DNA of 64,000 nucleotides, taken from positions 186,001-250,000 of the forward strand of contig NZ_CM001440.1 of the NCBI RefSeq assembly GCF_000244975.1, in the 5' to 3' direction. The translations under genes were made by a program, and so were the position numbers. The notes beneath the pieces were generated by a model that made no database searches, was not told the DNA's origin, and saw only the letters and a list, made by a program, of their open reading frames with translations. Positions 2,944 to 14,051 of this stretch are shown here, piece by piece. This DNA comes from Saccharomonospora cyanea NA-134 (lineage in GTDB: Bacteria; Actinomycetota; Actinomycetes; Mycobacteriales; Pseudonocardiaceae). How positions within the stretch are numbered: the first letter of the stretch is position 1; every line of letters starts with the position of its first letter.

Positions 2944-3855
2944 TCAGTACCGGAAGAAGCGCTCCCTACGGCCTTGCCGCACGAGCCTGAGCCACTGGGC
3001 GAACGCCTTCGGGTCGCGCTTGACTCCCACGAAGTACAGGCCGAAGCGCAGCAGCTCCAGCGCCCCGATCTTGCGCATCCCCGGTTGCGACAGCAGATAG
3101 CCGCGGTTGCGGTAGGTGTAGTACCGCTTGACCTCGTTCTCCGGGTCCTGCGCGTGGAACCGGCCGCCGAGCATGGGCTTGAACTCGTCCGAACCGTTCG
3201 GGTGCAGGTACGCGGTGCGCAGCGAGGTGCCGAACGGAAGACCGGAGCGCACCAGCCTGCGGTGCATCTCCACCTCGTCACCCCGGACGAACAACCTCAG
3301 GTCCGGAACACCGGTCACTTCGAGCGTCGAGGCGCGGAACAGCGCACCGTTCATCAGCGACGCGATACCGGGCAGGAAGTCGGTGCCGAGTTCCGACGCC
3401 GACCGCTTCCACGTCAGGCCACGCCGCAGCGGGAAGGCGAGCTTTCCGGGTGCGTCGATGCTCGCCACCACCGGCGACACCTCGGCGAGGTTGCGCCGCT
3501 CCGCCTCCTCGAGCAGCACCTGGAGCACGTTCTCGTCGGCGGGCCTGCCGTCGTCGTCGGCGAGCCACACCCACTCCGCGCCCATCGCGAGCGCGTGCAG
3601 CATCCCCAGCGCGAATCCGCCCGCGCCGCCCAGGTTGTGGTGCGAGGGCAGGTACGTCGACGGCACGCCACAGTCGGCCACCACGTCCCGCGCGGGTCGG
3701 TCCGGCCCGTTGTCCACCACCACGAGGTGGTCCACGGGCCGGGTCTGGGCAGCGACGATCTTCAGCGACTCCGCGAGCAGGTCACGGCGGTGCCGGGTGA
3801 CCACCACGGCCACCACCGCACCTTCCGGCAAGCGCTTCGCCTCCACGTCAGGCAC
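2944..3855 (-). CDS. glfT1: Galactofuranosyltransferase GlfT1-like (GT2)
   Basis: 303 residues, GTG start. The N-terminus is a GT-A fold: VVAVVVTRHRRDLL, then VVVDNG, NLGGAGGF and the metal-binding WLADDDGRP (DDD near residue 100). C-terminal elements RGDEVEMHRR and KRYYTYRNRGYL are typical of the galactofuranosyltransferase that starts the wall galactan on the decaprenyl-PP-GlcNAc-Rha lipid. It would act at the inner membrane face with UDP-galactofuranose. The start overlaps the ABC ATPase stop by 8 bases, and the order permease, ATPase, GlfT1 forms one operon. In M. tuberculosis the same three functions are adjacent (Rv3781-Rv3783, from memory). Length matches the family. Confidence 0.88.
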   Translation of the reverse strand: MPDVEAKRLPEGAVVAVVVTRHRRDLLAESLKIVAAQTRPVDHLVVVDNGPDRPARDVVADCGVPSTYLPSHHNLGGAGGFALGMLHALAMGAEWVWLADDDGRPADENVLQVLLEEAERRNLAEVSPVVASIDAPGKLAFPLRRGLTWKRSASELGTDFLPGIASLMNGALFRASTLEVTGVPDLRLFVRGDEVEMHRRLVRSGLPFGTSLRTAYLHPNGSDEFKPMLGGRFHAQDPENEVKRYYTYRNRGYLLSQPGMRKIGALELLRFGLYFVGVKRDPKAFAQWLRLVRQGRRERFFRY

Positions 3856-4654
3856 CGCTCGTCGCCGAGGCCTGTTCGAGCCGGTCGAGGGTCTCCTGGC
3901 TGACGTTCTCGAACGGATCCCTGCCCTTGTAGGCGGTGAGGACCTCCCGCAGCGAGCCCTGCATCTTCATGTTTCCCTCGTCCATCCAGATGGCGGACGT
4001 GCACAGTTCCAGCAGCAGGTCGTCCTGGTGGGAAGCGAACACCAGCAGGCCCGACCGGTTCACGAGGTCGACGAGCCGGTCGCGGGCCTTGTTGAGGAAC
4101 GCCGCGTCCACCGCGCCGATGCCCTCGTCGAGCAGCAGGATCTCCGGGTCGATGGAGGTCACCACGCCGAGCGCGAGCCGCACCCGCATGCCCGTGGAGT
4201 AGGTGCGCAGCGGCATCGACAGGTAGTCGCCGAGTTCGGTGAAGTCGGCGATGTCGTCGATCCGCTTTTCCATCTCCTTGCGGGACATGCCCAGGTACAG
4301 GCCACGGATCAGGATGTTCTCGTAGCCGGAGATCTCCTGGTCCATGCCGACACCCAGGTCGAACACGGGCGCCACGCGACCCCGCACGCGGGCCGAACCG
4401 CGGGTGGGTTCGTAGATGCCGGACAGCAGCCGCAGCAGCGTGGACTTGCCCGCGCCGTTGTGGCCGACGAGCGCCACGCGGTCACCGCTCTTCAACGACA
4501 GGTTGATGTCGTGCAGCGCCTCGATGATCGGCACCCGGCTCTCGGTGCCGATCTTGCCGCCGACCTTGCCGAGGACCCGCTTCTTCAGCGACCGCGTCTT
4601 GGCGTCGAAGATCGGGAAGTCGACGTAGGCGTTCCGAACGTCAATGCTGATCAT
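3848..4654 (-). CDS. ABC exporter ATPase, Wzt/RfbE type
   Basis: 268 residues. All ABC motifs are present: Walker A GHNGAGKST near residue 63, signature YSTGMRVRL near 150, Walker B ILLLDEGIG near 171 and the switch histidine in FASHQDD. The N-terminal extension before the core (FDAKTRSLKKRVLG) is typical of polysaccharide-exporting Wzt-like ATPases. There is no extra C-terminal carbohydrate-binding domain. It should power export of the lipid-linked galactan with the permease six bases upstream, and it overlaps GlfT1 by 8 bases downstream. Confidence 0.88.
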   Translation of the reverse strand: MISIDVRNAYVDFPIFDAKTRSLKKRVLGKVGGKIGTESRVPIIEALHDINLSLKSGDRVALVGHNGAGKSTLLRLLSGIYEPTRGSARVRGRVAPVFDLGVGMDQEISGYENILIRGLYLGMSRKEMEKRIDDIADFTELGDYLSMPLRTYSTGMRVRLALGVVTSIDPEILLLDEGIGAVDAAFLNKARDRLVDLVNRSGLLVFASHQDDLLLELCTSAIWMDEGNMKMQGSLREVLTAYKGRDPFENVSQETLDRLEQASATSGA

Positions 4655-4660
4655 GAATTG

Positions 4661-5551
4661 TCACACCCAATACGAGACGCGGGCACGGTAGTTGCGCATG
4701 ACCACGAGAGCGAGTGCCCAGCCGACGACGGTGATGCCACCGACGATGGCGTAGTGGTGCCAGCTCACACTGTTCCCGATGAGCGGCGCCCGCACCACCT
4801 GGATGAAGTGATACAGCGGGTTCAGCTCGGCGACGTAGTCGCGCCAGTCGGCGGTGCCACCGAACTTGTCCTTCAGGATGTCGGTGGTCCACACGATCGG
4901 CGTCATGAAGAACAGCAGGTTGATCAGGCTGGAGACCACCTGCGGGATGTCGCGGAAGCGCGTGGAGGCGATGCCGAACAGCAGCACCACCCAGCCCGCG
5001 TTGATCGCCAGCAGCGCGAAGCCCGGGATGGCGAGCAGCGCGTCCCAGTTCAGGCCCGGATGCGACATGCCGCCTTCGGTCATCGTGTAGTTCGGCGCCG
5101 TGATGTCGTTCCAGAAGATGGCGACCACGATGAAGTAGATCACCATGTTGTGGACGAACATGATGCACTGGCGCCACACCGTGCGCAGCGCGTAGACCGA
5201 CAACGGCGCGGGCAGGTGCTTGATGAGGCCTTCGTTGGCGATGAACGTGTCGGTGCCGTCGGTGAGGCAGCCGAGGATGAAGTTCCAGACGATGAAGCCC
5301 GTGGTGATGTAGGGCAGGAAGGTGCCGACGGAGGCGCCGAAGAGCTGTGAGTACAGCAGGCCGAGCCCCAGCGCGGTGATTCCCATGCTGATGGTGATCC
5401 ATAGCGGACCGAGCACGGAACGCCGGTAGCGCTGCTTGATGTCCTGCCAGGCCAGGTGGCCCCAGAGCTCAGGCTGTTTGAAGCCGTTTCTGATGTCCGA
5501 CAGCGCGCGGCCGAAGGTCCGGCTGTCCGAGGAGGGTGGTGCCGACGTCAT
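4661..5551 (-). CDS. ABC-2 type polysaccharide export permease, Wzm/RfbD type
   Basis: ABC-2 membrane domain with about six hydrophobic segments. The conserved N-terminal coupling region reads WQDIKQRYRRSVLGPLW and the C-terminal part contains PIVW and 'NPLYHFIQVVRAPL', both standard in O-antigen/galactan exporters. I prefer the ATG at 5551; an in-frame GTG at 5593 would add 14 residues, and neither has a strong ribosome site. It is the first gene of the operon with the ATPase and GlfT1, reading away from the pseudaminate genes. The likely substrate is lipid-linked galactan precursor, inferred from GlfT1 linkage. Confidence 0.87.
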   Translation of the reverse strand: MTSAPPSSDSRTFGRALSDIRNGFKQPELWGHLAWQDIKQRYRRSVLGPLWITISMGITALGLGLLYSQLFGASVGTFLPYITTGFIVWNFILGCLTDGTDTFIANEGLIKHLPAPLSVYALRTVWRQCIMFVHNMVIYFIVVAIFWNDITAPNYTMTEGGMSHPGLNWDALLAIPGFALLAINAGWVVLLFGIASTRFRDIPQVVSSLINLLFFMTPIVWTTDILKDKFGGTADWRDYVAELNPLYHFIQVVRAPLIGNSVSWHHYAIVGGITVVGWALALVVMRNYRARVSYWV

Positions 5552-5820
5552 CGATGTCGTCTCTGTGGGGTCGACGGTGCTTGTGGCGTGCACGGCATAT
5601 GAGGGTACTTGCGTCCGCGGACGGCGATCGCGCGGTCTGCCCGAACACCGGACCAGACCGTTTCGGCGGCCGTTGTCGCAGGTGACGGGCTCGCCGTGGT
5701 GGCGTGAGGTCGGTGTGAAGGCAGCGAGCGGCTTCCAGGGCTCGCGCGGCGGTCGACACGTTGCGTCGATCCCGGGTGTACGTGGAGCACACGGGCGCGC
5801 GCCCTGATAACTTCCGCCGC

Positions 5821-6480
5821 ATGACTTCTGGTGTCCTCACGTCGAGCCTGATGGTGAGCCTGCTTCAGGCGTACGCGGACCGCCCGGACCCACGGTCCGT
5901 GGCCGTCGTGGGGAACCAGCCGCTCGCTCCGGACGCCGAACGCGCCAAGGCCATCGACTCGTGTGACCTGGTGATCCGGGTGAACGGCTTCGTGTGCGAC
6001 GAGCCGGGTGCGCCGCCGACCGTGGGGGCGAGGACCCACGTCGTCGTCTTCAACCGCGCACTGCGCGCGACGAAGTGGGTGTTCGCCGACTACCGCTCGA
6101 AGCTCTACCTGATGGTGGAGCCCGGCAGGCTGCACTGGGAACCGGAGGACATTCCGGGGTGGTGGCCCGCCGACCTGGGGTTCGTTCCGGTGTCGAACTG
6201 CGAGGTCACGCTGCCGTTGTCGGAAGCGATGGGCCTGCCCAGCCGTGAGGAGGCGGCCTGGGCGACGACGGGCACGATGGCGGCGTGGATCGCGCGGTCC
6301 TCGTTTCCCGACGCAGACCTCGTGCTGTCGGGTTTCTCCTTCGTGGACGACCCGAACCAGACGTCGTGGCAGCACGCCGCGGGCGACTCGTGCATCGTCG
6401 GCCCGGAACACCGCATCGCGCTGGAGGGCAGGCTCCTCCAGTCGTGGCTCGACGCGGGCTCGGCCCGGCTGCTCCGCTGA
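5821..6480 (+). CDS. GT29-like sialyltransferase-motif protein, candidate pseudaminyltransferase
   Basis: 219 residues from the ATG at 5821; an in-frame TTG at 5761 would add 20 residues without homology-like sequence. It shows an ordered set of motifs like those of GT29 sialyltransferases: VAVVGN...AIDSCDLVIRVN near residues 24-55 (sialylmotif L-like), ATTGTMAAW...DLVLSGFSF near 145-175 (motif S-like), and H-x4-E in the sequence HRIALE near 199 (motif VS). There is no signal peptide or membrane segment, so it is expected in the cytoplasm using a CMP-sugar. It stands first in the pseudaminate locus, 44 bases before the coiled-coil gene. Its donor is probably the CMP-pseudaminate made by the neighbours. 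Family call moderate, substrate inferred. Confidence 0.62.
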   Translation: MTSGVLTSSLMVSLLQAYADRPDPRSVAVVGNQPLAPDAERAKAIDSCDLVIRVNGFVCDEPGAPPTVGARTHVVVFNRALRATKWVFADYRSKLYLMVEPGRLHWEPEDIPGWWPADLGFVPVSNCEVTLPLSEAMGLPSREEAAWATTGTMAAWIARSSFPDADLVLSGFSFVDDPNQTSWQHAAGDSCIVGPEHRIALEGRLLQSWLDAGSARLLR

Positions 6481-6524
6481 CCGTCTTCGTGGACTCACCT
6501 CACGCACCTAAGGAACCGCTGAAC

Positions 6525-7019
6525 ATGACCTCGACGAACCCGCTCGCCATGCTCCGTGCCCGCCTCGGCGACAGACTCGCCCGCCTCGTGGACTTCCGTG
6601 TCGGAGAGCTCACGCGCGGCCGGTTGGACAGCCACGAGGAGCGGATCACCGAGCAGGAGCACTGCACGGTCGACCATCGCCGCCGCCTCGACGAGCTGGA
6701 GGCCGGGCTCGACCGGGTACGTGGTGACCTGTTGTGGACGACGGGTGAGGTGCAGCGGCTCGTCCCGCACGTCGCAGCGCAGGAGGCGCAGCTGGAGGAC
6801 CTGCGCGAGCGGATCGCCCTGACCCCGTCGAGCGACGACAAGCAGGCGGTGGAGGCGCGCACGCTGATCGAGGAGATCCAGCGGCAGCACGCGCAGATCC
6901 GGGTGCGGTTGGCGGGGATCGCGCGCTACGAGGACCGGCTGCGGGTGCTGGAGGAGCGTACGGCCGAGAAGGCCGCCGAGGAGGCGGCAGAGAAGGCAGC
7001 CGAGAAGGCGAATGGCTGA
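6525..7019 (+). CDS. Coiled-coil protein of the pseudaminate locus
   Basis: 164 residues from the ATG at 6525, preceded by AAGGA. Almost the whole protein after residue ~30 is charged heptad-like sequence (RRLDELEAGLDRVRGDL, LEDLRERI, YEDRLRVLEERT) and it ends in an Ala/Glu/Lys repeat. There is no enzyme motif, signal or membrane segment. Its stop overlaps the PseH-like start by 8 bases, so it is translated with the biosynthetic genes. A scaffold or length-measuring partner of the adjacent transferase is possible, but nothing in the sequence proves it. Not recognised as a known family. Confidence 0.6.
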   Translation: MTSTNPLAMLRARLGDRLARLVDFRVGELTRGRLDSHEERITEQEHCTVDHRRRLDELEAGLDRVRGDLLWTTGEVQRLVPHVAAQEAQLEDLRERIALTPSSDDKQAVEARTLIEEIQRQHAQIRVRLAGIARYEDRLRVLEERTAEKAAEEAAEKAAEKANG

Positions 7020-7500
7020 CGGCGTGCCGAGGGTCCGCCTCGCCTCGGAGTCGGACGCCGAGGCGTTGTTGCGCTGGCGCAACGATCCGGACACCCGGCG
7101 CTGGTCACGGAACACGGCCGAGGTCGCACTCGCCGATCACCTCGCCTGGTTGCGCGGGGTGCTGGCGTCGGAGGGCCGGCTGCTGCTGGTCGCGGAGAAC
7201 GACGCGGCGGAACGGGTCGGCATGGTCCGGTTCGACCGGATCGACGCGGGGACGTGGGAGGTCAGCATCACGGTCGCCCCCGAGCACAGGGGTACGCGGC
7301 TCGCCCGCCCGCTGCTCGCCGAGGGTGAGCGGGAGCTCCGCCGTCGCCGGTCACCCGGTACCGTGCTGGCGACCGTGCACCGCGACAACACGGCGTCGGT
7401 GGCGTTGTTCCGCACGGCCGGGTACGCGCCGGACGGCACGGACGGTACGGACACCGGTTTCCTCCGGTTCGTCAAGGCAGTCTCGTCGGAAGGGCAGTGA
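7012..7500 (+). CDS. pseH: GNAT acetyltransferase, PseH-like
   Basis: 162 residues with GNAT features: VRLASESDAEALLRWRNDP at the start, a β4-type VSITVAPEHRGTRLARPLL acetyl-CoA loop near residues 83-101, and the late TVHRDNTASVALFRTAGY near 120-137. The 'RWRNDP..R' opening is common in acetyltransferases of nonulosonic-acid pathways. The predicted reaction is N-4 acetylation of UDP-4-amino-4,6-dideoxy-β-L-AltNAc, the product of PseC. The start overlaps the coiled-coil gene by 8 bases and the stop abuts the PseI ATG. Substrate is inferred from the cluster; the fold call is strong. Confidence 0.75.
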   Translation: MADGVPRVRLASESDAEALLRWRNDPDTRRWSRNTAEVALADHLAWLRGVLASEGRLLLVAENDAAERVGMVRFDRIDAGTWEVSITVAPEHRGTRLARPLLAEGERELRRRRSPGTVLATVHRDNTASVALFRTAGYAPDGTDGTDTGFLRFVKAVSSEGQ

Positions 7501-8550
7501 ATGACGTCGATCCGCATCGGCAGCCACGAGATCGGGCCCGACCACCCACCCTTCGTGATCGCCGAGGTGTCCGGCAACCACAACGGCAGTCTCGACCGGG
7601 CCCTGGCCATCGTGGACGCGGTCGCGGACGCCGGTGCGCAGGCCGTGAAGCTCCAGACCTACCGGCCCGACACGATCACCATCGACGTCGACACGCCCGC
7701 TTTCCGGCTGAGTGACGACCACGAACTGTGGAGCGGCGAGAACCTGTACCGCCTGTACGAGCGCGCGCACACGCCGTGGGAGTGGCACGAGAAGCTGTTC
7801 GCCCGCGCCCGTGAGCGTGGCCTGGAGGTGTTCTCCAGCCCGTTCGACCCCACGGCCGTGGAGTTGCTCGAATCGCTGGACGCGCCCGCGTACAAGATCG
7901 CGTCGTCGGAGATCGTGGACCTGCCGCTCATCGAGCTGTGCGCGCGGACGGGCAAGCCGTTGGTGATCTCCACCGGGATGGCGAGCGTGGGGGAGATCGA
8001 CGCCGCCGTGCGTGCGGCGCGCGCGGCGGGCAACGACCGGATCCTGCTGCTGGGCTGCACCGCGTCGTACCCGGCGCCGCCGAGCGACAGCAACCTGCGC
8101 TCGCTGCCCGTGCTGACGCAGACCTTCGGCACTCCCGTCGGGCTGTCCGACCACACGATGGGTATCGGTGCTCCCGTGGCGGCCGTGGCGTTGGGCGCGT
8201 GCGCGGTCGAGAAGCACGTGACGCTCGCGCGCGACGACGGCGGCGTCGACTCGGCGTTCTCGCTGGAGCCCCACGAACTGGCCGCGCTCGTCACCGAGAC
8301 CCGGCGTGCGTGGGAGGCACTCGGAACGGCGTCGATCGGGCCGAAGGCCAGCGAGCAGGAGGGGCTGCGCCTGCGCCGTTCGCTCTACGTGGTGGAGGAC
8401 GTGAAGGCGGGCGAACCGGTGACCGAGCGCAACGTGCGCTCGATCCGGCCGGCCGGGGGACTTCCGCCCGCGGAGATCACCACCGTGTTGGGCCGCACGT
8501 TCCGTGCCGACGCGGCCAAGGGCACGCCGCTGACCTGGGATTTGCTTTAG
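7501..8550 (+). CDS. pseI: Pseudaminic acid synthase PseI
   Basis: 349 residues. The N-terminal TIM-barrel synthase domain has FVIAEVSGNHNGSL, AVKLQTYRPDT, FSSPFDPTAVELL, YKIASSE and LVISTGMAS. The C-terminal SAF (antifreeze-like) domain has RRSLYVVEDVKAGE and NVRSIRPAGGLPP. It condenses 6-deoxy-AltdiNAc with phosphoenolpyruvate to give pseudaminic acid. The EVSGNHNGS and HTPWEWHEKLF segments favour PseI over a sialic acid synthase NeuB. Length is normal. It starts immediately after the PseH-like stop and ends 3 bases from the convergent pseC stop, so no terminator separates them. Confidence 0.9.
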   Translation: MTSIRIGSHEIGPDHPPFVIAEVSGNHNGSLDRALAIVDAVADAGAQAVKLQTYRPDTITIDVDTPAFRLSDDHELWSGENLYRLYERAHTPWEWHEKLFARARERGLEVFSSPFDPTAVELLESLDAPAYKIASSEIVDLPLIELCARTGKPLVISTGMASVGEIDAAVRAARAAGNDRILLLGCTASYPAPPSDSNLRSLPVLTQTFGTPVGLSDHTMGIGAPVAAVALGACAVEKHVTLARDDGGVDSAFSLEPHELAALVTETRRAWEALGTASIGPKASEQEGLRLRRSLYVVEDVKAGEPVTERNVRSIRPAGGLPPAEITTVLGRTFRADAAKGTPLTWDLL

Positions 8551-8553
8551 TCG

Positions 8554-9690
8554 TCAGGCGCCGAAGAACGACCGTACGGCGTCGATCACGCGGTCGGCGT
8601 CGGAGTCGGTGAGGTCGGCGAACAGCGGCAGTGACAGCTCCTGGGAGTAGTACGCCTCGGCGTTCGGGCACAGTCCACGCCGGTAGCCGAGGTCCTCGAA
8701 CACGGGGTGCCAGTACGCGGGGATGTAGTTCACCTGCACGCCGATGCCGTGGGCGCGCAGGTGGTCGAACAGCTCCCCGCGCCTGCCGTCGAGCACCCGC
8801 AGCGGGTAGAGGTGCCACATCGGGTCGGCCTCGGCCCGGCACACCGGGGTCAGCACGTCCGCCACGTCCTTCAGCCCGGCGTCGTACCGGGCGTGCAGTT
8901 CGGCCCTGCGCTGCTTGAAGGCCGCCAGGCGGCGCAGTTGGCTGGAGCCGAGCGCGCACAGCACGTCGGGTAGCCGGTAGTTCAGCCCGAAGGCGTGGAC
9001 CTCCTGGTGCCACGCGCCCTCGTCCGGGTACCGCTGGCGGTCGCGGTCGCGCACGAGGCCGTGGTTGCGGAACGCGCGGGCGCGCTCCACCAGCTCGGGC
9101 ACGGGGCTGACCACCGCACCGCCCTCGGCGGTGGTGAGGTTCTTCGTGGCGAAGAACGAGAACGTGGTGAGGTCGGCGATCGACCCGACGGGCCTGCCCC
9201 GCCAACTGCCGCCGATGGAGTGGGCCGCGTCCTCCAGCAGCAGCGCGCCCGCCGAGTCGGCCACGTCGCGCAGGGCGTCGAGTTCGGCGGGATGCCCGGC
9301 GTAGTCGACGGCCGCGAGCACCTTCGTGCGTTCGGTGACCGCGGCTCGCGCGGCGGCCGGGTCGAGGTTGCCGGTGTCGGCTTCGGTGTCGGCGAACACG
9401 ACCTTCGCGCCGTGCAGAGCGGCCGTGGCGGCCGTGGCCACGAACGTCAGGGGGCTGGTCACCACCTCGTCGCCGGGGCCGACGCCCGCGGCGGCGTAGG
9501 CCACGTGCAGGGCGGCGGTGCCCGAGGTGACGGCCACGGCGGGCGTGCCACCGGTGTGTTCGGCGAGGTCGGACTCGAACCGGGTCACGGCGGGCCCGGT
9601 GGTCAGCCAGTCGCCGCGCAGTACCTCGGTGACGGCGGCGATGTCGGATTCACTGACCGACTGGCGTCCGTAGGGCAGGAAGTCACTCAT
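8554..9690 (-). CDS. pseC: UDP-4-amino-4,6-dideoxy-L-AltNAc transaminase PseC
   Basis: 378 residues, DegT/DnrJ/EryC1 aminotransferase family. It begins with LPYGRQSVSESDIAAV and WLTTGPAV, has SGTAALHVAY for phosphate binding, LLEDAAHSIGG with the cofactor-ring aspartate, and the PLP lysine in FFATKNLTTAEGG near residue 180. It transfers an amino group from glutamate to the 4-keto sugar made by PseB. The ATG overlaps the upstream pseB stop by 8 bases, so pseB and pseC form a two-gene operon in pathway order, convergent with pseHI. Length is as expected. Confidence 0.9.
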   Translation of the reverse strand: MSDFLPYGRQSVSESDIAAVTEVLRGDWLTTGPAVTRFESDLAEHTGGTPAVAVTSGTAALHVAYAAAGVGPGDEVVTSPLTFVATAATAALHGAKVVFADTEADTGNLDPAAARAAVTERTKVLAAVDYAGHPAELDALRDVADSAGALLLEDAAHSIGGSWRGRPVGSIADLTTFSFFATKNLTTAEGGAVVSPVPELVERARAFRNHGLVRDRDRQRYPDEGAWHQEVHAFGLNYRLPDVLCALGSSQLRRLAAFKQRRAELHARYDAGLKDVADVLTPVCRAEADPMWHLYPLRVLDGRRGELFDHLRAHGIGVQVNYIPAYWHPVFEDLGYRRGLCPNAEAYYSQELSLPLFADLTDSDADRVIDAVRSFFGA

Positions 9691-10666
9691 GCTCGGCGAT
9701 CAGCTTCTTGATGTCGTCGGTGGACAGCCACAGGTCGTTGGTGTCGGACCGGTAGGAGAAGCCGTCCGGCACCGGCACGCCGTCCTCGGGCGGCTCGTAG
9801 CCCCAACCCGCGATGTGGGGCTGCACGACGTAGCGGTCGCCGAGCCGCACGGTGCGGCGCGAGTCGTCGGGCGCGATCATCTCCTCGTGCAGCTTCTCGC
9901 CGGGGCGGATGCCGACCTCGTGCATGGGGCTGCCGGGTGCGATGGCCTGGGCGAGGTCCACGAGCCGCATGCTCGGGATGCGCGGCACGTAGAGCTCACC
10001 GCCGCGCATGAGGTCGAAGGAGTCGACCACGAACTTCACGGCCTGCGGCAACGTGATCCAGAACCGCGTCATGTCCTTGTGCGTGATCGGAAGTGACTCG
10101 CCCCGCTCGGCCAGCGACCGGAAGAACGGGATCACGCTTCCCCGAGAGGCCATCACGTTGCCGTACCGCACGACGGCGAACCGGGCCGGGTGCGTGGCGG
10201 CGTAGTGGTTCGCACTGATGAACATGCGGTCGGCGCACAGCTTCGTGGCGCCGTAGAGGTTGATGGGGCTCGACGCCTTGTCGGTGGACAGCGCGACGAC
10301 CTTCTTCACACCGGTGTCGATGGCCGCCTCGATGACGTTCTGCGAGCCCATCACGTTGGTCTGGACGAACTCGAACGGGTTGTACTCGCCGGTGTCGACC
10401 TGCTTCAACGCGGCGGCGTGCACGACGTAGTCGACGCCGTGCATGGCGCGTTCCAGCCTGCGCCGGTCGCGGACGTCGCCGATGAACCACCGCAGCCTCG
10501 GGTCGTTCCCGAACTGCTGTTTCACCTCGTACTGCTTGAGTTCGTCACGCGAGAGCACCACGAGCCTGCGCGGGTTCAGTTCGGCGAGCGCGTAGTCGAT
10601 GAACGCCTTCCCGAACGAGCCCGTTCCTCCGGTGAGCAGAATGCTGGACCCGTCGAGCTCGGCCAT
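9683..10666 (-). CDS. pseB: UDP-GlcNAc 4,6-dehydratase (5-inverting) PseB
   Basis: 327 residues, extended SDR fold. The NAD(P) loop is LLTGGTGSFGKAF near residue 10, DELKQYEVKQQF follows, and the catalytic segment is STDKASSPINLYGATKL near residues 128-144, with the lysine used by inverting dehydratases. The later MRGGELYVPRIPS and RPGEKLHEEMI are hallmarks of PseB/FlaA1. It makes UDP-2-acetamido-2,6-dideoxy-β-L-arabino-hexos-4-ulose, the first pathway step. It lies head-to-head with the cytidylyltransferase gene with only 39 bases between starts, so the two transcripts share a compact divergent promoter region. Confidence 0.9.
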   Translation of the reverse strand: MAELDGSSILLTGGTGSFGKAFIDYALAELNPRRLVVLSRDELKQYEVKQQFGNDPRLRWFIGDVRDRRRLERAMHGVDYVVHAAALKQVDTGEYNPFEFVQTNVMGSQNVIEAAIDTGVKKVVALSTDKASSPINLYGATKLCADRMFISANHYAATHPARFAVVRYGNVMASRGSVIPFFRSLAERGESLPITHKDMTRFWITLPQAVKFVVDSFDLMRGGELYVPRIPSMRLVDLAQAIAPGSPMHEVGIRPGEKLHEEMIAPDDSRRTVRLGDRYVVQPHIAGWGYEPPEDGVPVPDGFSYRSDTNDLWLSTDDIKKLIAEHE

Positions 10667-10705
10667 CCCTACCTCCGCGGTGATGCGTTGTTGCCGACCG
10701 ACATC

Positions 10706-11461
10706 ATGTCATTCATGTCGTCATCGCCGACCGTGAACGTCGTGATTCAGGCTCGGGCGTCCTCGACCCGGTTGCCGGGCAAGGTGCTGCGTCCGCTGGG
10801 GGAGCGGTCCGTGCTGGGCTGGGTGGTGCGCGCGGCCCGGCGGACGCGCGGTGTGGACACGGTGGTGGTGGCCACCTCGGACGCACCCGACGACGACGCC
10901 GTGGCCGAGGAGGCGCTCCGCCAGGGCGCGCGGGTCGTTCGCGGTCCCCTCGACGACGTGCTCGCGCGGTTTCTCGTGGCGTGTGAGGAGTATCCGGCCG
11001 ACGCCGTGGTGCGGCTGACCGCCGACTGCCCGCTGCACGACCCGGCGTTGCTGACGCAGGTGGTGGCGCTGTGGCGGGCCCAGCCCGAGCTGGACTACGT
11101 GAGCACCACGCTGGTGCGGACGCTGCCGCGAGGGTTCGACGCCGAACTCGTGCGGGTGCCCGTGCTGGCCGAGCAGGCGCGGCGGCCGGAGGGCCCGCAC
11201 CGGGAGCACGTCACCTACGGCGTGGCGAACGACGCCGAGACCTACGCCTGTTCCGGTGTGGTGACGGCGCCGCGTGCCGACGACCTGCGCGTCACGCTCG
11301 ACACCGAGGACGACTGGGCGTTGCTCGAAGCGCTCGTGCGAGAGCTGTCGCGCAGGCACGGCGAAGGTCCGTTCGCGTGGCGCGACGTGGTGGCGGTACT
11401 CCGGGAACGCGCGGATCTCGTGGCCCTGAACGCCCACGTCGAACAGAAGGAGGTCGCGTGA
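10706..11461 (+). CDS. pseF: SpsF/PseF-like cytidylyltransferase
   Basis: 251 residues from the ATG at 10706; a second ATG at 10715 is equally possible. The nucleotidyltransferase opening VNVVIQARASSTRLPGKVLRPLG is followed by VVVATSDAPDDD, RFLVAC and VVRLTADCPLHDP, which is the SpsF-type cytidylyltransferase pattern. In this cluster it should activate pseudaminic acid with CTP to give the CMP-sugar donor. The stop overlaps the PseG ATG (TGATG). It is more like SpsF than the classical NeuA-type PseF, so the gene symbol reflects role by context. Confidence 0.75.
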   Translation: MSFMSSSPTVNVVIQARASSTRLPGKVLRPLGERSVLGWVVRAARRTRGVDTVVVATSDAPDDDAVAEEALRQGARVVRGPLDDVLARFLVACEEYPADAVVRLTADCPLHDPALLTQVVALWRAQPELDYVSTTLVRTLPRGFDAELVRVPVLAEQARRPEGPHREHVTYGVANDAETYACSGVVTAPRADDLRVTLDTEDDWALLEALVRELSRRHGEGPFAWRDVVAVLRERADLVALNAHVEQKEVA

Positions 11462-12468
11462 TGACGCGGCTACTGCTGCGGGCCGACGCGTCGCCGACGA
11501 TCGGTGTCGGGCACGTGTCGAGGATGGTGGCGTTCGCCGAGCAGGCACGGACCCGCGGCTGGCCGGTGACGTTCTCGGGCACGTTGACCGGCGCCGACTG
11601 GTTCGCCGCGCGACTGAAGGATCTCGGGGTCGACGTCGTGCCCCCGACCGAGGTGGACGACGAGCGGGCCCTCCCCGCGCTGGCGCGAGCGGTGGCGGCC
11701 GACGTGGTGCTGGTGGACCACTACGGCATCGGTGAGCAGCGCGCCGCCGTGAACGCCGCGGGCGCGGTGCTGGTGTCGCTGGAGAGCCGGACGTTCGGGC
11801 GCAGGCAGGCCGACGTCGTGGTGGAGTCGGAACTCCACGACCTTCCCCGGCCCGACGACGGCTCTCCCGTGGTGCTTCGGGGGCCGCGCTACGCGCCGTT
11901 GCGTGAGCAGGTGTTGCGGGCGAGACGGCAGCGGGCCGGATCGCGCGAACACCCCGGAGCACCCCGGGTCGTGGTGGTGCTCGGCGGTGGTGCGGTGTGG
12001 CGTGAGGAGGTGACGCGCGTGCTGCGCGCGTTGCGCGACACCGGCCTGGCCTTCGACGCCGACGTCGTTGCCCACGGCGACCCCGACGTTCCCGAACCTG
12101 CGCCGGGTCAGCGGTTCACCGTGTCCACACCGGACACCCACCTGCCGGAGCGGCTGGCCGGGGCCGACCTCGTGGTGAGCGCGGCGGGGGTGACCCTGCT
12201 CGAAGCGTGCTGCATCGGTGTGCCCACCGCGCTGGTGCTGTTGGTGGACAACCAGGAGGCGGGCTACCACGCGGCCGTCCAGAAGCGGCTCGCCGTAGGA
12301 CTGGGGTGGGCCCGGGGCGACTCCGCGCTCGACGGCGCCTCGGCGGCACTGGCGGGCCTGCTCGGCGATCCCGACGGGCGGCGGCGGATGGCGTCCGAGG
12401 CCGCCGCCGCTGTGGACGGTCTCGGGGCGGCGCGAGTGCTCGACGCCGCGGTGAGGGTGACGACATGA
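11461..12468 (+). CDS. pseG: UDP-2,4-diNAc-6-deoxy-L-altrose hydrolase PseG
   Basis: 335 residues. It shows the PseG pattern: LLRADASPTIGVGHVSRM with the G-x-GH-x-x-R motif near the start, VVLVDHYGI, a central glycine loop VVVVLGGG, and the C-terminal LVVSAAGVTLLEACCIGVPT near residue 240, related to GT-B UDP-binding sequences. It removes UDP from the diacetylated sugar before PseI acts. The start overlaps the cytidylyltransferase stop by one base and the stop overlaps the next ATG (ATGA), so the three-gene unit is translationally coupled. Confidence 0.87.
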   Translation: MTRLLLRADASPTIGVGHVSRMVAFAEQARTRGWPVTFSGTLTGADWFAARLKDLGVDVVPPTEVDDERALPALARAVAADVVLVDHYGIGEQRAAVNAAGAVLVSLESRTFGRRQADVVVESELHDLPRPDDGSPVVLRGPRYAPLREQVLRARRQRAGSREHPGAPRVVVVLGGGAVWREEVTRVLRALRDTGLAFDADVVAHGDPDVPEPAPGQRFTVSTPDTHLPERLAGADLVVSAAGVTLLEACCIGVPTALVLLVDNQEAGYHAAVQKRLAVGLGWARGDSALDGASAALAGLLGDPDGRRRMASEAAAAVDGLGAARVLDAAVRVTT

Positions 12469-14051
12469 TCGAGCCCGAGGCGCCACGCGCGAGCCTTCGG
12501 GCCATAGTCGGGAAGGCCGCCCTCTTCCTCGGCCTCGTCGCGGTGTTCGGCGTGGGCACGTGGGCGGCGATCGAGTTCACGGTGGACGACGCCTACATCA
12601 CCTTCCGGTACAGCGAGAACCTCGCCGACGGGCACGGGCCGGTGTGGAACGTCGGTGCCGATCCGGTGGAGGGGTTCACGAACTTCGGCTGGATGCTGCT
12701 GTTCTCGCTGTTCGCCGCGCTCGACTGGCACCTCGACGCCGTGGCGAAGGTGGTGTCGGCTGTGATCGGTGTGGTGACGGCGGGCATGCTGGTGCGCCAC
12801 GGGTACCGGTTCGGCTCCTGGCCCGCCGCGGTGGTCGCGGCCACGGCGTTCGTGGTGTTCCTGCCGACGTACTTCCACGTGGCCGCCGGGTTGGAGACCA
12901 TGGCGTTCGCCGCCGTGGTGCTGCGGGCGAGCGTGGTCGGCCTCGACGCGGTGGAGAAGCGGCGCGTGCGGGTGTGGGAGCCTCCGCTGCTCGTGGTGGT
13001 CGCCGGGATGCTGCGGCCGGAGGGCGTGCTCGTGGCCGCGATTCCGCTGGCGTTGTGGCTGTGGCAGCAGCGTCGTGATCGCGCCGCGTGGTTCTGGACC
13101 GGCCTGGCCGCGGCCGTGGGCCTCGGCTACTTCGGGTGGCGCTGGTCCTTCTACGGGCACCCGTTGCCGAACACGTTCTACGTGAAGTTCGGCGACGTCG
13201 ACGCGGGGCTGCGCTGGATCGAGGACACAGCCGTGGTGATGGGCCCGCTGGTGTCGCTCACGGGGGTGTTGCTCGTGCCCCGCGCGACGCGCAGGTGGGG
13301 GGCGCTGCTGCTCGCCGTCGTCGCGGCCACGTACGTCACGTACGCGCTCTCGGGCCCGACCATGGACTACCTGCACCGGTTCGCCTACCACGCGTTTCCG
13401 GTGATCTGCCTGGGCGCGGGGCTCGGCGTGAGCGTGATCGCCAGGAGGATCGGCGGCAACGCGGTCATCCAGCGCACGCTCGCGGCGGCGACCGGGGTGC
13501 TCGCGGTCGGCTGGATCGGGTTGTGGGGCGTGCTGTCCGACCAGCTGCCCCTGATCGCCAACTACGGTGTCGACCTCCAGCGCGCCCACGTGGCCATCGG
13601 CAAGGCGCTCGCGGAGTCGGACGTCGACGAACGGCACCGCAGCGTCGCCGTCCACGACGCGGGCGCCATCCCCTACTTCAGCGGCTGGGAGACCGTCGAC
13701 TACATCGGGCTCAACGACGAGGCGATCGCGCACGGCGCCGACCCGACGGCGGTCGTGCGGCAGGCCCGACCGACGATGATCGTCGTGCGCGCGTACGGGC
13801 CCTACGTGCCTCAGAACGCCTACGGGCTCCGGGTCGTGGAGGCGACCGCGGGCTACGAGTACGTGGGCAGGGTGCAGATGCGCGACGGGTACTGGTTGAA
13901 CCTGTTCGTGCTGCCGGAATGGGCCGACCCGGTGGCCACCGCCGTGGAACGCCATGCCACCTACGCGCAGGCGACCTACGACCCCGGACGTTACGAGCTG
14001 ACCATCGACCGCTGGGTCGATCGGCTCGCCACCCGCCTCGGCGGCGGCTGA
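12465..14051 (+). CDS. AftB-like membrane arabinofuranosyltransferase (GT-C)
   Basis: 528 residues with about ten hydrophobic segments in the first 360 and a soluble C-terminal domain. The first loop carries VDDAYITFRYSENLADGHGPVWN followed by VEGFTNFGW, the pattern seen in AftB-type arabinofuranosyltransferases that use decaprenyl-phosphoryl-arabinose; the aspartates of VDDAY are the expected catalytic site on the outer face. The start overlaps pseG by ATGA, so it is co-expressed with the pseudaminate genes. A terminator follows. It could cap arabinan or add a sugar to the polymer that receives pseudaminic acid; this function is inference. Confidence 0.75.
   Translation: MIEPEAPRASLRAIVGKAALFLGLVAVFGVGTWAAIEFTVDDAYITFRYSENLADGHGPVWNVGADPVEGFTNFGWMLLFSLFAALDWHLDAVAKVVSAVIGVVTAGMLVRHGYRFGSWPAAVVAATAFVVFLPTYFHVAAGLETMAFAAVVLRASVVGLDAVEKRRVRVWEPPLLVVVAGMLRPEGVLVAAIPLALWLWQQRRDRAAWFWTGLAAAVGLGYFGWRWSFYGHPLPNTFYVKFGDVDAGLRWIEDTAVVMGPLVSLTGVLLVPRATRRWGALLLAVVAATYVTYALSGPTMDYLHRFAYHAFPVICLGAGLGVSVIARRIGGNAVIQRTLAAATGVLAVGWIGLWGVLSDQLPLIANYGVDLQRAHVAIGKALAESDVDERHRSVAVHDAGAIPYFSGWETVDYIGLNDEAIAHGADPTAVVRQARPTMIVVRAYGPYVPQNAYGLRVVEATAGYEYVGRVQMRDGYWLNLFVLPEWADPVATAVERHATYAQATYDPGRYELTIDRWVDRLATRLGGG

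Follow-up and report, generated by a model that had tools for sequence, protein, structure and literature searches.

The window analyzed here is a stretch of 64,000 nucleotides (positions 186,001 to 250,000 of contig NZ_CM001440.1) from Saccharomonospora cyanea NA-134, whose genome comprises 5,408,301 bases in one contig. The type strain NA-134T, a soil organism of the family Pseudonocardiaceae, is described as non-motile and as having a type IV wall in which arabinose and galactose are present (PMC3910552). Within the window, genes for a protein resembling the sialyltransferases of glycosyltransferase family GT29 and for an adjoining partner protein precede a cassette for pseudaminic acid (Pse), all of them beside the galactan export genes of an arabinogalactan locus. 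The genes form three blocks, with the GT29-like gene, the partner, PseH and PseI on the plus strand, PseC and PseB on the minus strand, and the cytidylyltransferase, PseG and a GT-C-like membrane protein again on the plus strand. A preliminary description of this DNA had recognized the Pse pathway, which by itself is a correct, fairly ordinary annotation. That description did not cover the GT29-like transferase and its partner, the arabinogalactan setting or the exchange of cassettes among relatives, and the transferase pair with exchangeable cassettes at the arabinogalactan locus is the new part.

The first gene of the group (5821..6480, plus strand) encodes a GT29-like, sialyltransferase-type glycosyltransferase and candidate nonulosonic acid transferase, scoring 19.7 bits with the Pfam GT29 model PF00777 (cut-off 23). 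Among 41 relatives 13 match this model at E<=0.01, the best at 1.7e-6, and no further Pfam family was matched. When a profile of these 41 rows was compared with the PDB, eight of the eight rows up to E=10 were sialyltransferases, and it is because these individually marginal matches agree that we argue for a relationship with GT29. The alignments to ST6Gal1 and ST8SiaIII span the stretch around sialylmotif L; for motif VS, the H...E aligns to both structures only in a second segment, which scores negatively. A scan of named genomes with GT29 alignment A1 supplied the best 80 of 85 relatives, hereafter the 80 loci; codes beginning with G denote sampled genomes and those beginning with L fetched loci. 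In all 78 intact copies, from 77 of the 80 loci and the window, residues N32, R53, R103, W106, G151, G171, S173, H185, H197 and E202 are invariant, and by the definitions of sialylmotifs L, III and VS, N32, R53, H185, H197 and E202 belong to these motifs. The Kyte-Doolittle maximum of the window protein is 1.12, versus 2.23 for the permease Wzm, and as no strongly hydrophobic segment is present, the enzyme is probably cytoplasmic. Scattered members outside the Pseudonocardiaceae account for 14 of the 80 loci, and in a phylum-wide sample of 396 genomes the family was found only in that of the window. Spread by plasmids was considered and dropped, as a tblastn search of 72,556 plasmid records returned no match to the GT29-like protein.

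The product of the second gene (6525..7019, plus strand) is a charged protein whose C-terminal stretch is conserved. With BLAST it was detected next to GT29 in 77 of the 80 loci, and in the three where it is missed (L121, L122 and L124) a small open reading frame adjoins GT29, two of these being included in alignment A3. Where a next reading frame was called, it overlaps the end of the GT29 gene in 14 of 75 loci. In the family survey, which consisted of profile searches in 297 sampled genomes from the family of the window, the partner profile matches 71 genomes. These include 69 of the 70 genomes with GT29, and in the 70th (G284) the gene was recovered by gene calling. Only two of the 71 lack a GT29 match, G141, which holds a remnant, and G317, in which the gene caller finds no partner gene at the matched place; the idea that the partner serves other systems was discarded accordingly. 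The averaged hydrophobicity of the partner alignment peaks at a period of 3.50, a height that 21 of 1000 shuffles attain, and the C-terminal part alone shows no periodicity signal (492 of 1000). Pfam matches of the relatives are scattered, with at most 4 of 26 members per family, and two of the families are described as coiled-coil regions. In a single-sequence heptad test the score was reached by 5 of 500 shuffles for L110 and by 143 for L126, and the test was negative for the window partner (262 of 500). The partner is thus probably a coiled-coil protein, with no coil signal from the window copy taken alone.

Downstream of this pair lie the six adjacent genes for Pse synthesis that had been reported, and all six reading frames are indeed present at the positions given. 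A codon-usage gene caller recovers each with an identical stop and moves the starts of the cytidylyltransferase and PseG slightly upstream, to 10688 and 11458, respectively. Pathway and galactan genes were scored against NCBIfam models with curated cut-offs. Two of the six exceed these, PseB, an inverting UDP-GlcNAc 4,6-dehydratase (9683..10666, minus strand; 482.5 bits, cut-off 407.75), and PseI, pseudaminic acid synthase (7501..8550, plus strand; 464.8 bits, cut-off 340.25). By sequence, their nearest PDB entries are 2gn4, 'UDP-GlcNAc C6 dehydratase' (E 1.7e-107), and 8h2c, 'Pseudaminic acid synthase' (E 4.6e-72). The PseC-type aminotransferase (8554..9690, minus strand) matches the PseC model best, with 411.7 bits slightly under the cut-off of 423.5; the ArnB-type model comes second (281.6), and a LegC-type model gives 184.8. 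Its nearest PDB entry is an ArnB-type aminotransferase. Cut-offs were not reached with the PseH, PseG and PseF models. The PseH-like acetyltransferase (7012..7500, plus strand), a GNAT protein by Pfam, scores 37.6 against 93.1, and the PseG-like UDP-sugar hydrolase (11461..12468, plus strand) 85.4 against 153.55, the latter without a match at E<=0.01 in a sequence search of the PDB. The cytidylyltransferase that likely makes CMP-Pse (10706..11461, plus strand) attains only 27.5 against 205.7 with PseF; its top NCBIfam model is KDO cytidylyltransferase (54.5, cut-off 193), it matches Pfam CTP_transf_3 with 79.2 bits, and its nearest PDB entry is 6oew, 'Cytidylyltransferase' (E 5.3e-30). According to Pfam, the PseH-like and cytidylyltransferase genes fall in the expected superfamilies, and we take the cytidylyltransferase to be SpsF-like and the hydrolase to be of the SpsG type. 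Judged by these scores against their cut-offs, the earlier statement that each gene carries its family motifs is strong for PseB, PseI and PseC, and weak for PseG, PseH and the cytidylyltransferase.

The preliminary description had named an assignment of PseI to NeuB or LegI, and of PseB to the retaining dehydratases, as an outcome that would speak against it. Instead, PseI classifies as PseI, its 464.8 bits contrasting with 281.0 as NeuB (under the NeuB cut-off of 399.65), and PseB as an inverting enzyme, with only 55.9 bits in the LegB model. A legionaminic or Neu identity of the cassette was dropped, as the LegB, LegC and NeuB models all score far lower. At the PseH position, 34 collected sequences fall into two dissimilar GNAT clusters of 20 and 14 members, which hints at differing acyl groups; two members of the cluster other than that of the window score 76.4 and 78.2 bits as PseH, higher than the window copy and likewise below 93.1. 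We infer that the six enzymes together would produce CMP-pseudaminic acid.

The presence of the GT29-like gene is closely tied to that of nonulosonic acid synthesis. At thresholds of E<=1e-10 for GT29 and E<=1e-30 for the NeuB family, 70 of the 297 genomes contain GT29 and 83 a NeuB-family gene; 67 have both, 3 only GT29, 16 only NeuB and 211 neither. An intact GT29 gene is accompanied by NeuB in 67 of 67 genomes, within 10 kb in 63 of them. Fisher's test for this association returns p 6e-47, a value that is no true probability because the genomes are related. The three genomes in which GT29 occurs without NeuB (G007, G008 and G011) all belong to Saccharomonospora, their loci being L142 (S. 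iraqiensis subsp. paurometabolica), L135 (S. halophila) and L139 (S. iraqiensis), and no PF03102 match was found in these genomes, which are 91, 83 and 82% complete. Their GT29 copies are altered at N32, N55, R103, W106, S173, Q180, H185 and H197 and keep R53, G171 and E202. Having lost both invariant histidines, these copies (near 10001-10690; L055, L056 and L059 / L142, L135 and L139) still stand with a partner gene. The pairwise ratio of nonsynonymous to synonymous substitution rates (dN/dS) is 0.64 and 0.45 for the decayed copies and 0.39 against the intact L075, whereas three intact pairs give 0.14, 0.14 and 0.18; the decayed copies show the signs of relaxed selection. Two Sciscionella genomes have an intact GT29 with no adjoining cassette and NeuB elsewhere in the genome. 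In G141 (L161, 8353-10059), the galactan locus still holds the partner and PseG, and neither GT29 nor NeuB is matched. As evidenced by the decayed copies, by Sciscionella and by G141, the sugar pathway and the transferase residues are lost together. Note that the remnant in G141 adjoins a 392-residue protein which, by eye, is like a polysaccharide pyruvyl transferase.

With strict labels, the cassettes in the 80 loci comprise 46 of the Pse type, 15 with NeuB, NeuC and NeuA, 9 with NeuB and NeuA fused to a phosphatase-like domain, and 10 without a label; each of the 70 with a label shows a NeuB-type match. Among the unlabelled ones, PseI stands near a contig end in L088 and L119, NeuA is seen in L129 and L134, L124 has PseB with a NeuB-type match, and no cassette is visible in L107, L108, L135, L139 and L142. 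A search of whole genomes finds NeuB for L107, L108, L124, L088, L119 (a partial match) and L134, and on another contig for L129; it finds none for L135, L139 and L142. One example locus per cassette type was scanned with NCBIfam. In G020, of the Neu type, NeuC scores above its cut-off (331.8, cut-off 235.9) and NeuB below (354.2, cut-off 399.65). In G036, with NeuB and the NeuA-phosphatase fusion, the score of NeuB is 267.7, and KdsC-type and KDN-9-phosphatase models match the fused domain without reaching their cut-offs, for which reason we only infer the designation 'Kdn-like'. The predicted GT29/partner pair is thus constant while the sugar cassette changes among three types.

A maximum-likelihood tree of the GT29 sequences, rooted for drawing only, has one side of 22 rows (11 Neu-type, 9 Kdn-like and 2 unlabelled) and another of 59 (47 Pse-type including the window, 4 Neu-type and 8 unlabelled). 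High identities are found across cassette types, 86.8% between L119 (PseI adjoining) and L120 (Neu) and 84.0% between L077 (Pse) and L110 (Neu). The transferase mostly follows its donor cassette, yet can survive the replacement of the latter. Two details of the exchanged cassettes were noted besides. An SpsF-like cytidylyltransferase with 71% identity is retained beside a Neu cassette in G020 (L060:5658-6395) and also in L110, and as the cassette has a NeuA of its own, the retained enzyme may have a further role. In G036 (L064:9822-11878), NeuB has 289 residues versus 349 in PseI of the window and adjoins NeuA fused to the domain resembling KdsC and KDN-9-phosphatase, a layout that presumably resembles animal CMP-sialic acid synthetase.

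Arabinogalactan is a core polymer of the mycobacterial wall and also occurs in some Pseudonocardiales (PMC6194230). On the minus strand next to the GT29-like gene lie those for the galactofuranosyltransferase GlfT1 (2944..3855; 510.2 bits, cut-off 330), the galactan export ATPase Wzt (3848..4654; 466.1, cut-off 400) and the export permease Wzm (4661..5593; 441.2, cut-off 380). The 268-residue Wzt matches ABC_tran and P-loop families in Pfam and no carbohydrate-binding or Wzt C-terminal domain. Over the 20 kb upstream, Glf, decaprenyl-phosphate phosphoribosyltransferase, DprE1 and DprE2 score above their cut-offs, accompanied by an Emb-type PF04602 protein and by a GlfT2-like protein 81% identical to one that best matches GlfT2 in the PDB (4fix, E 1.1e-106). 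GlfT1, Wzt and Wzm are all contained in the fetched stretch of 62 of the 80 loci, among which each of the three cassette types is represented. The NeuB and NeuA-phosphatase genes of G036 lie between the GT29/partner pair and a GlfT2-like gene (52% identical to that of G020), which adjoins Wzm. None of the three is found in the stretch in 18 loci, namely the 14 loci outside the Pseudonocardiaceae (L111-L124), L125, L127, L129 and L134, the last of which ends at a contig end and keeps the BPA, CysDS and ADH genes that follow the cassette in the window. No flagellin (PF00669) was detected in the whole S. cyanea genome, this being the one flagellar family searched. Together with the adjoining galactan export genes in the arabinogalactan locus, this makes a polymer of the wall or surface, as proposed earlier, a likelier destination of the product than a flagellum.

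Based on these observations a pathway can be proposed. CMP-sugars are made in the cytoplasm, and there PseB, PseC, PseH, PseG, PseI and the SpsF-like enzyme would convert UDP-GlcNAc to CMP-pseudaminic acid, as judged from their families. The GT29-like protein and its partner would then pass the nonulosonic acid on from its CMP-linked form to an acceptor, a step suggested by distant homology, co-occurrence with NeuB and joint decay. The acceptor would most likely be lipid-linked galactan, the product of GlfT1 and GlfT2, and this would be decorated or capped, then exported by Wzm/Wzt and arabinosylated outside; in relatives, a Neu-type or Kdn-like cassette would supply the same transferase pair in place of Pse. 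The sequence comparisons lend good support to the predicted roles of donor and transferase, and it is location alone that suggests galactan as the acceptor. For the reading as a whole, a cytoplasmic nonulosonic-acid transferase that decorates, possibly caps, galactan before export by Wzm/Wzt, we see nearly balanced prospects, leaning slightly to doubt. Decoration is more likely than a strictly checked cap, since the coil is not fused to the enzyme and Wzt lacks a carbohydrate-binding domain. The wider view, that Pseudonocardiaceae make an arabinogalactan capped with Pse, a Neu or a Kdn-like sugar, with GT29 and its coiled-coil partner ending or decorating the chain and the cassette setting the sugar, is put forward tentatively.

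Several observations weigh against such a galactan-directed transferase. The window copy remains under the gathering score of PF00777, the best PDB match of the 41-row profile has an E of only 0.01, and a smaller profile of 13 rows finds, up to E=1, five sialyltransferases in six rows, the sixth being an unrelated dockerin. Hydrophobicity exceeds 1.6 in 3 of the 80 GT29 copies, and the genomes with decayed copies are incomplete. Other users of nonulosonic acids exist in the family, as 16 of its 83 NeuB genomes have no GT29 match (for example L066 of G013). The pair also occurs without galactan export genes in the stretch in L111-L124, L125, L127 and L129, so that the acceptor need not be galactan everywhere. 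These last loci fit with the pair and cassette serving another glycan of the wall or surface, for instance a teichulosonic acid, whose genes only neighbor those for arabinogalactan, and so does the GT-C-like membrane protein encoded after the cassette. Among actinomycetes, teichulosonic acids with Kdn are on record from Streptomyces walls, and teichulosonic acids also from Kribbella (PMC11481543, PMC6113628). Against this stand the 62 loci that retain the pair beside the genes for galactan export, whatever their cassette, and the fact that no distinct polymerase or export genes were recognized in the block of the window, for which no family search was made; a separate glycan is possible in our view, though doubtful.

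Attachment of the sugar to proteins by O-glycosylation, the GT29-like enzyme being a transferase for proteins or peptide-linked glycans, appears very improbable. The best-known use of Pse is indeed on flagellin, by Maf-type transferases (PMC4065374), and some NeuB genomes lack the galactan neighborhood of GT29, but the S. cyanea genome has no flagellin, the PDB-matched members of GT29 act on glycans, and the galactan neighborhood would be left unexplained. The product may also be a nonulosonic acid other than Pse5Ac7Ac, a stereoisomer or one with other acyl groups, which would be compatible with the proposed transferase. PseC, PseG, PseH and the cytidylyltransferase under their cut-offs point in this direction, as do the two GNAT clusters, with two members of the one to which the window copy does not belong scoring higher as PseH than that copy; with the inverting PseB and PseI above their cut-offs, and LegB, LegC and NeuB far lower, we regard a different sugar as unlikely.

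Compared with the Gram-negative Pse pathway (PseB/C/H/G/I/F), all six enzyme types are found here, PseB and PseI passing the curated models, but the cytidylyltransferase and PseG are divergent and flagellin is lacking. The Pse transferases found in the literature searched are Maf (PMC4065374) and the KpsC-like KpsS1 of family GT118 (PMC12887879), whereas here a GT29-like transferase adjoins the cassette rather than Maf, which was not searched for, or KpsS1. In the literature searched on Pse transferases and GT29 we found no GT29 enzyme that uses Pse. Bacterial GT29 sialyltransferases were reported in 2018 in an article whose main text, the supplements aside, does not contain the word actinobacteria (PMC5811610). 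The enzymes described here share with GT29 sialyltransferases the conserved H and HxxxxE, and in the PDB their 41-row profile matches sialyltransferases only, but differ in their length of about 210-240 residues, in mostly lacking a strongly hydrophobic anchor, in the adjoining partner and in standing beside Pse as well as Neu-type cassettes. The closest working parallel for the mechanism is chain termination of ABC-exported O antigens by WbdD, WbbB or GT137, in which a terminator, CMP-Kdo-dependent in O4, is coupled to a coiled-coil ruler and the cap is recognized by the exporter (PMC11231755). A donor of the CMP-ulosonate type, a coiled-coil-like protein and ABC export of a lipid-linked glycan are common to both; here the coil is a separate adjoining gene, Wzt has no carbohydrate-binding domain, and chain termination is a possible role. 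With the teichulosonic acids of actinomycetes the system would share a nonulosonic acid in the wall, shown there and predicted here (PMC11481543, PMC6113628), but there Kdn lies within a galactose-containing polymer, while here the genes lie among those for arabinogalactan. A statement joining arabinogalactan with a nonulosonic acid was not found in the parts of the open literature searched, PMC9561416 among them, subscription papers lying mostly outside the search. Nor did the open literature searched mention teichulosonic and pseudaminic acid together. Pse-containing wall polymers are said to occur in actinomycetes such as Kribbella.

Should the proposed reading be correct, a sialic-acid-like sugar would be placed on arabinogalactan by a bacterial relative of the animal sialyltransferases whose donors can be exchanged. 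The wider view would make the system an actinobacterial counterpart to O-antigen chain termination, with a GT29 enzyme using Pse. The relatives with Pse, Neu, Kdn-like or no cassette would then form a natural comparison set for wall function and GT29 donor specificity, and the bacterial GT29-like group gains a directly testable donor and acceptor.

The remaining features concern the surroundings of the system. The hydrophobic, GT-C-like membrane protein (12465..14051, plus strand) has a sub-threshold NCBIfam glycosyltransferase match, shares 23% identity with a membrane protein in the upstream locus, and is present in only part of the relatives. A second Emb-type PF04602 protein is encoded far from the arabinogalactan locus (G000:C1:996990-998360). 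Two DUF3558 proteins (166-741 and 2314-2877 of the window) sit on either side of a longer protein whose PPE match is below threshold, and in relatives DUF3558 and PPE-like genes vary in number at the same place.

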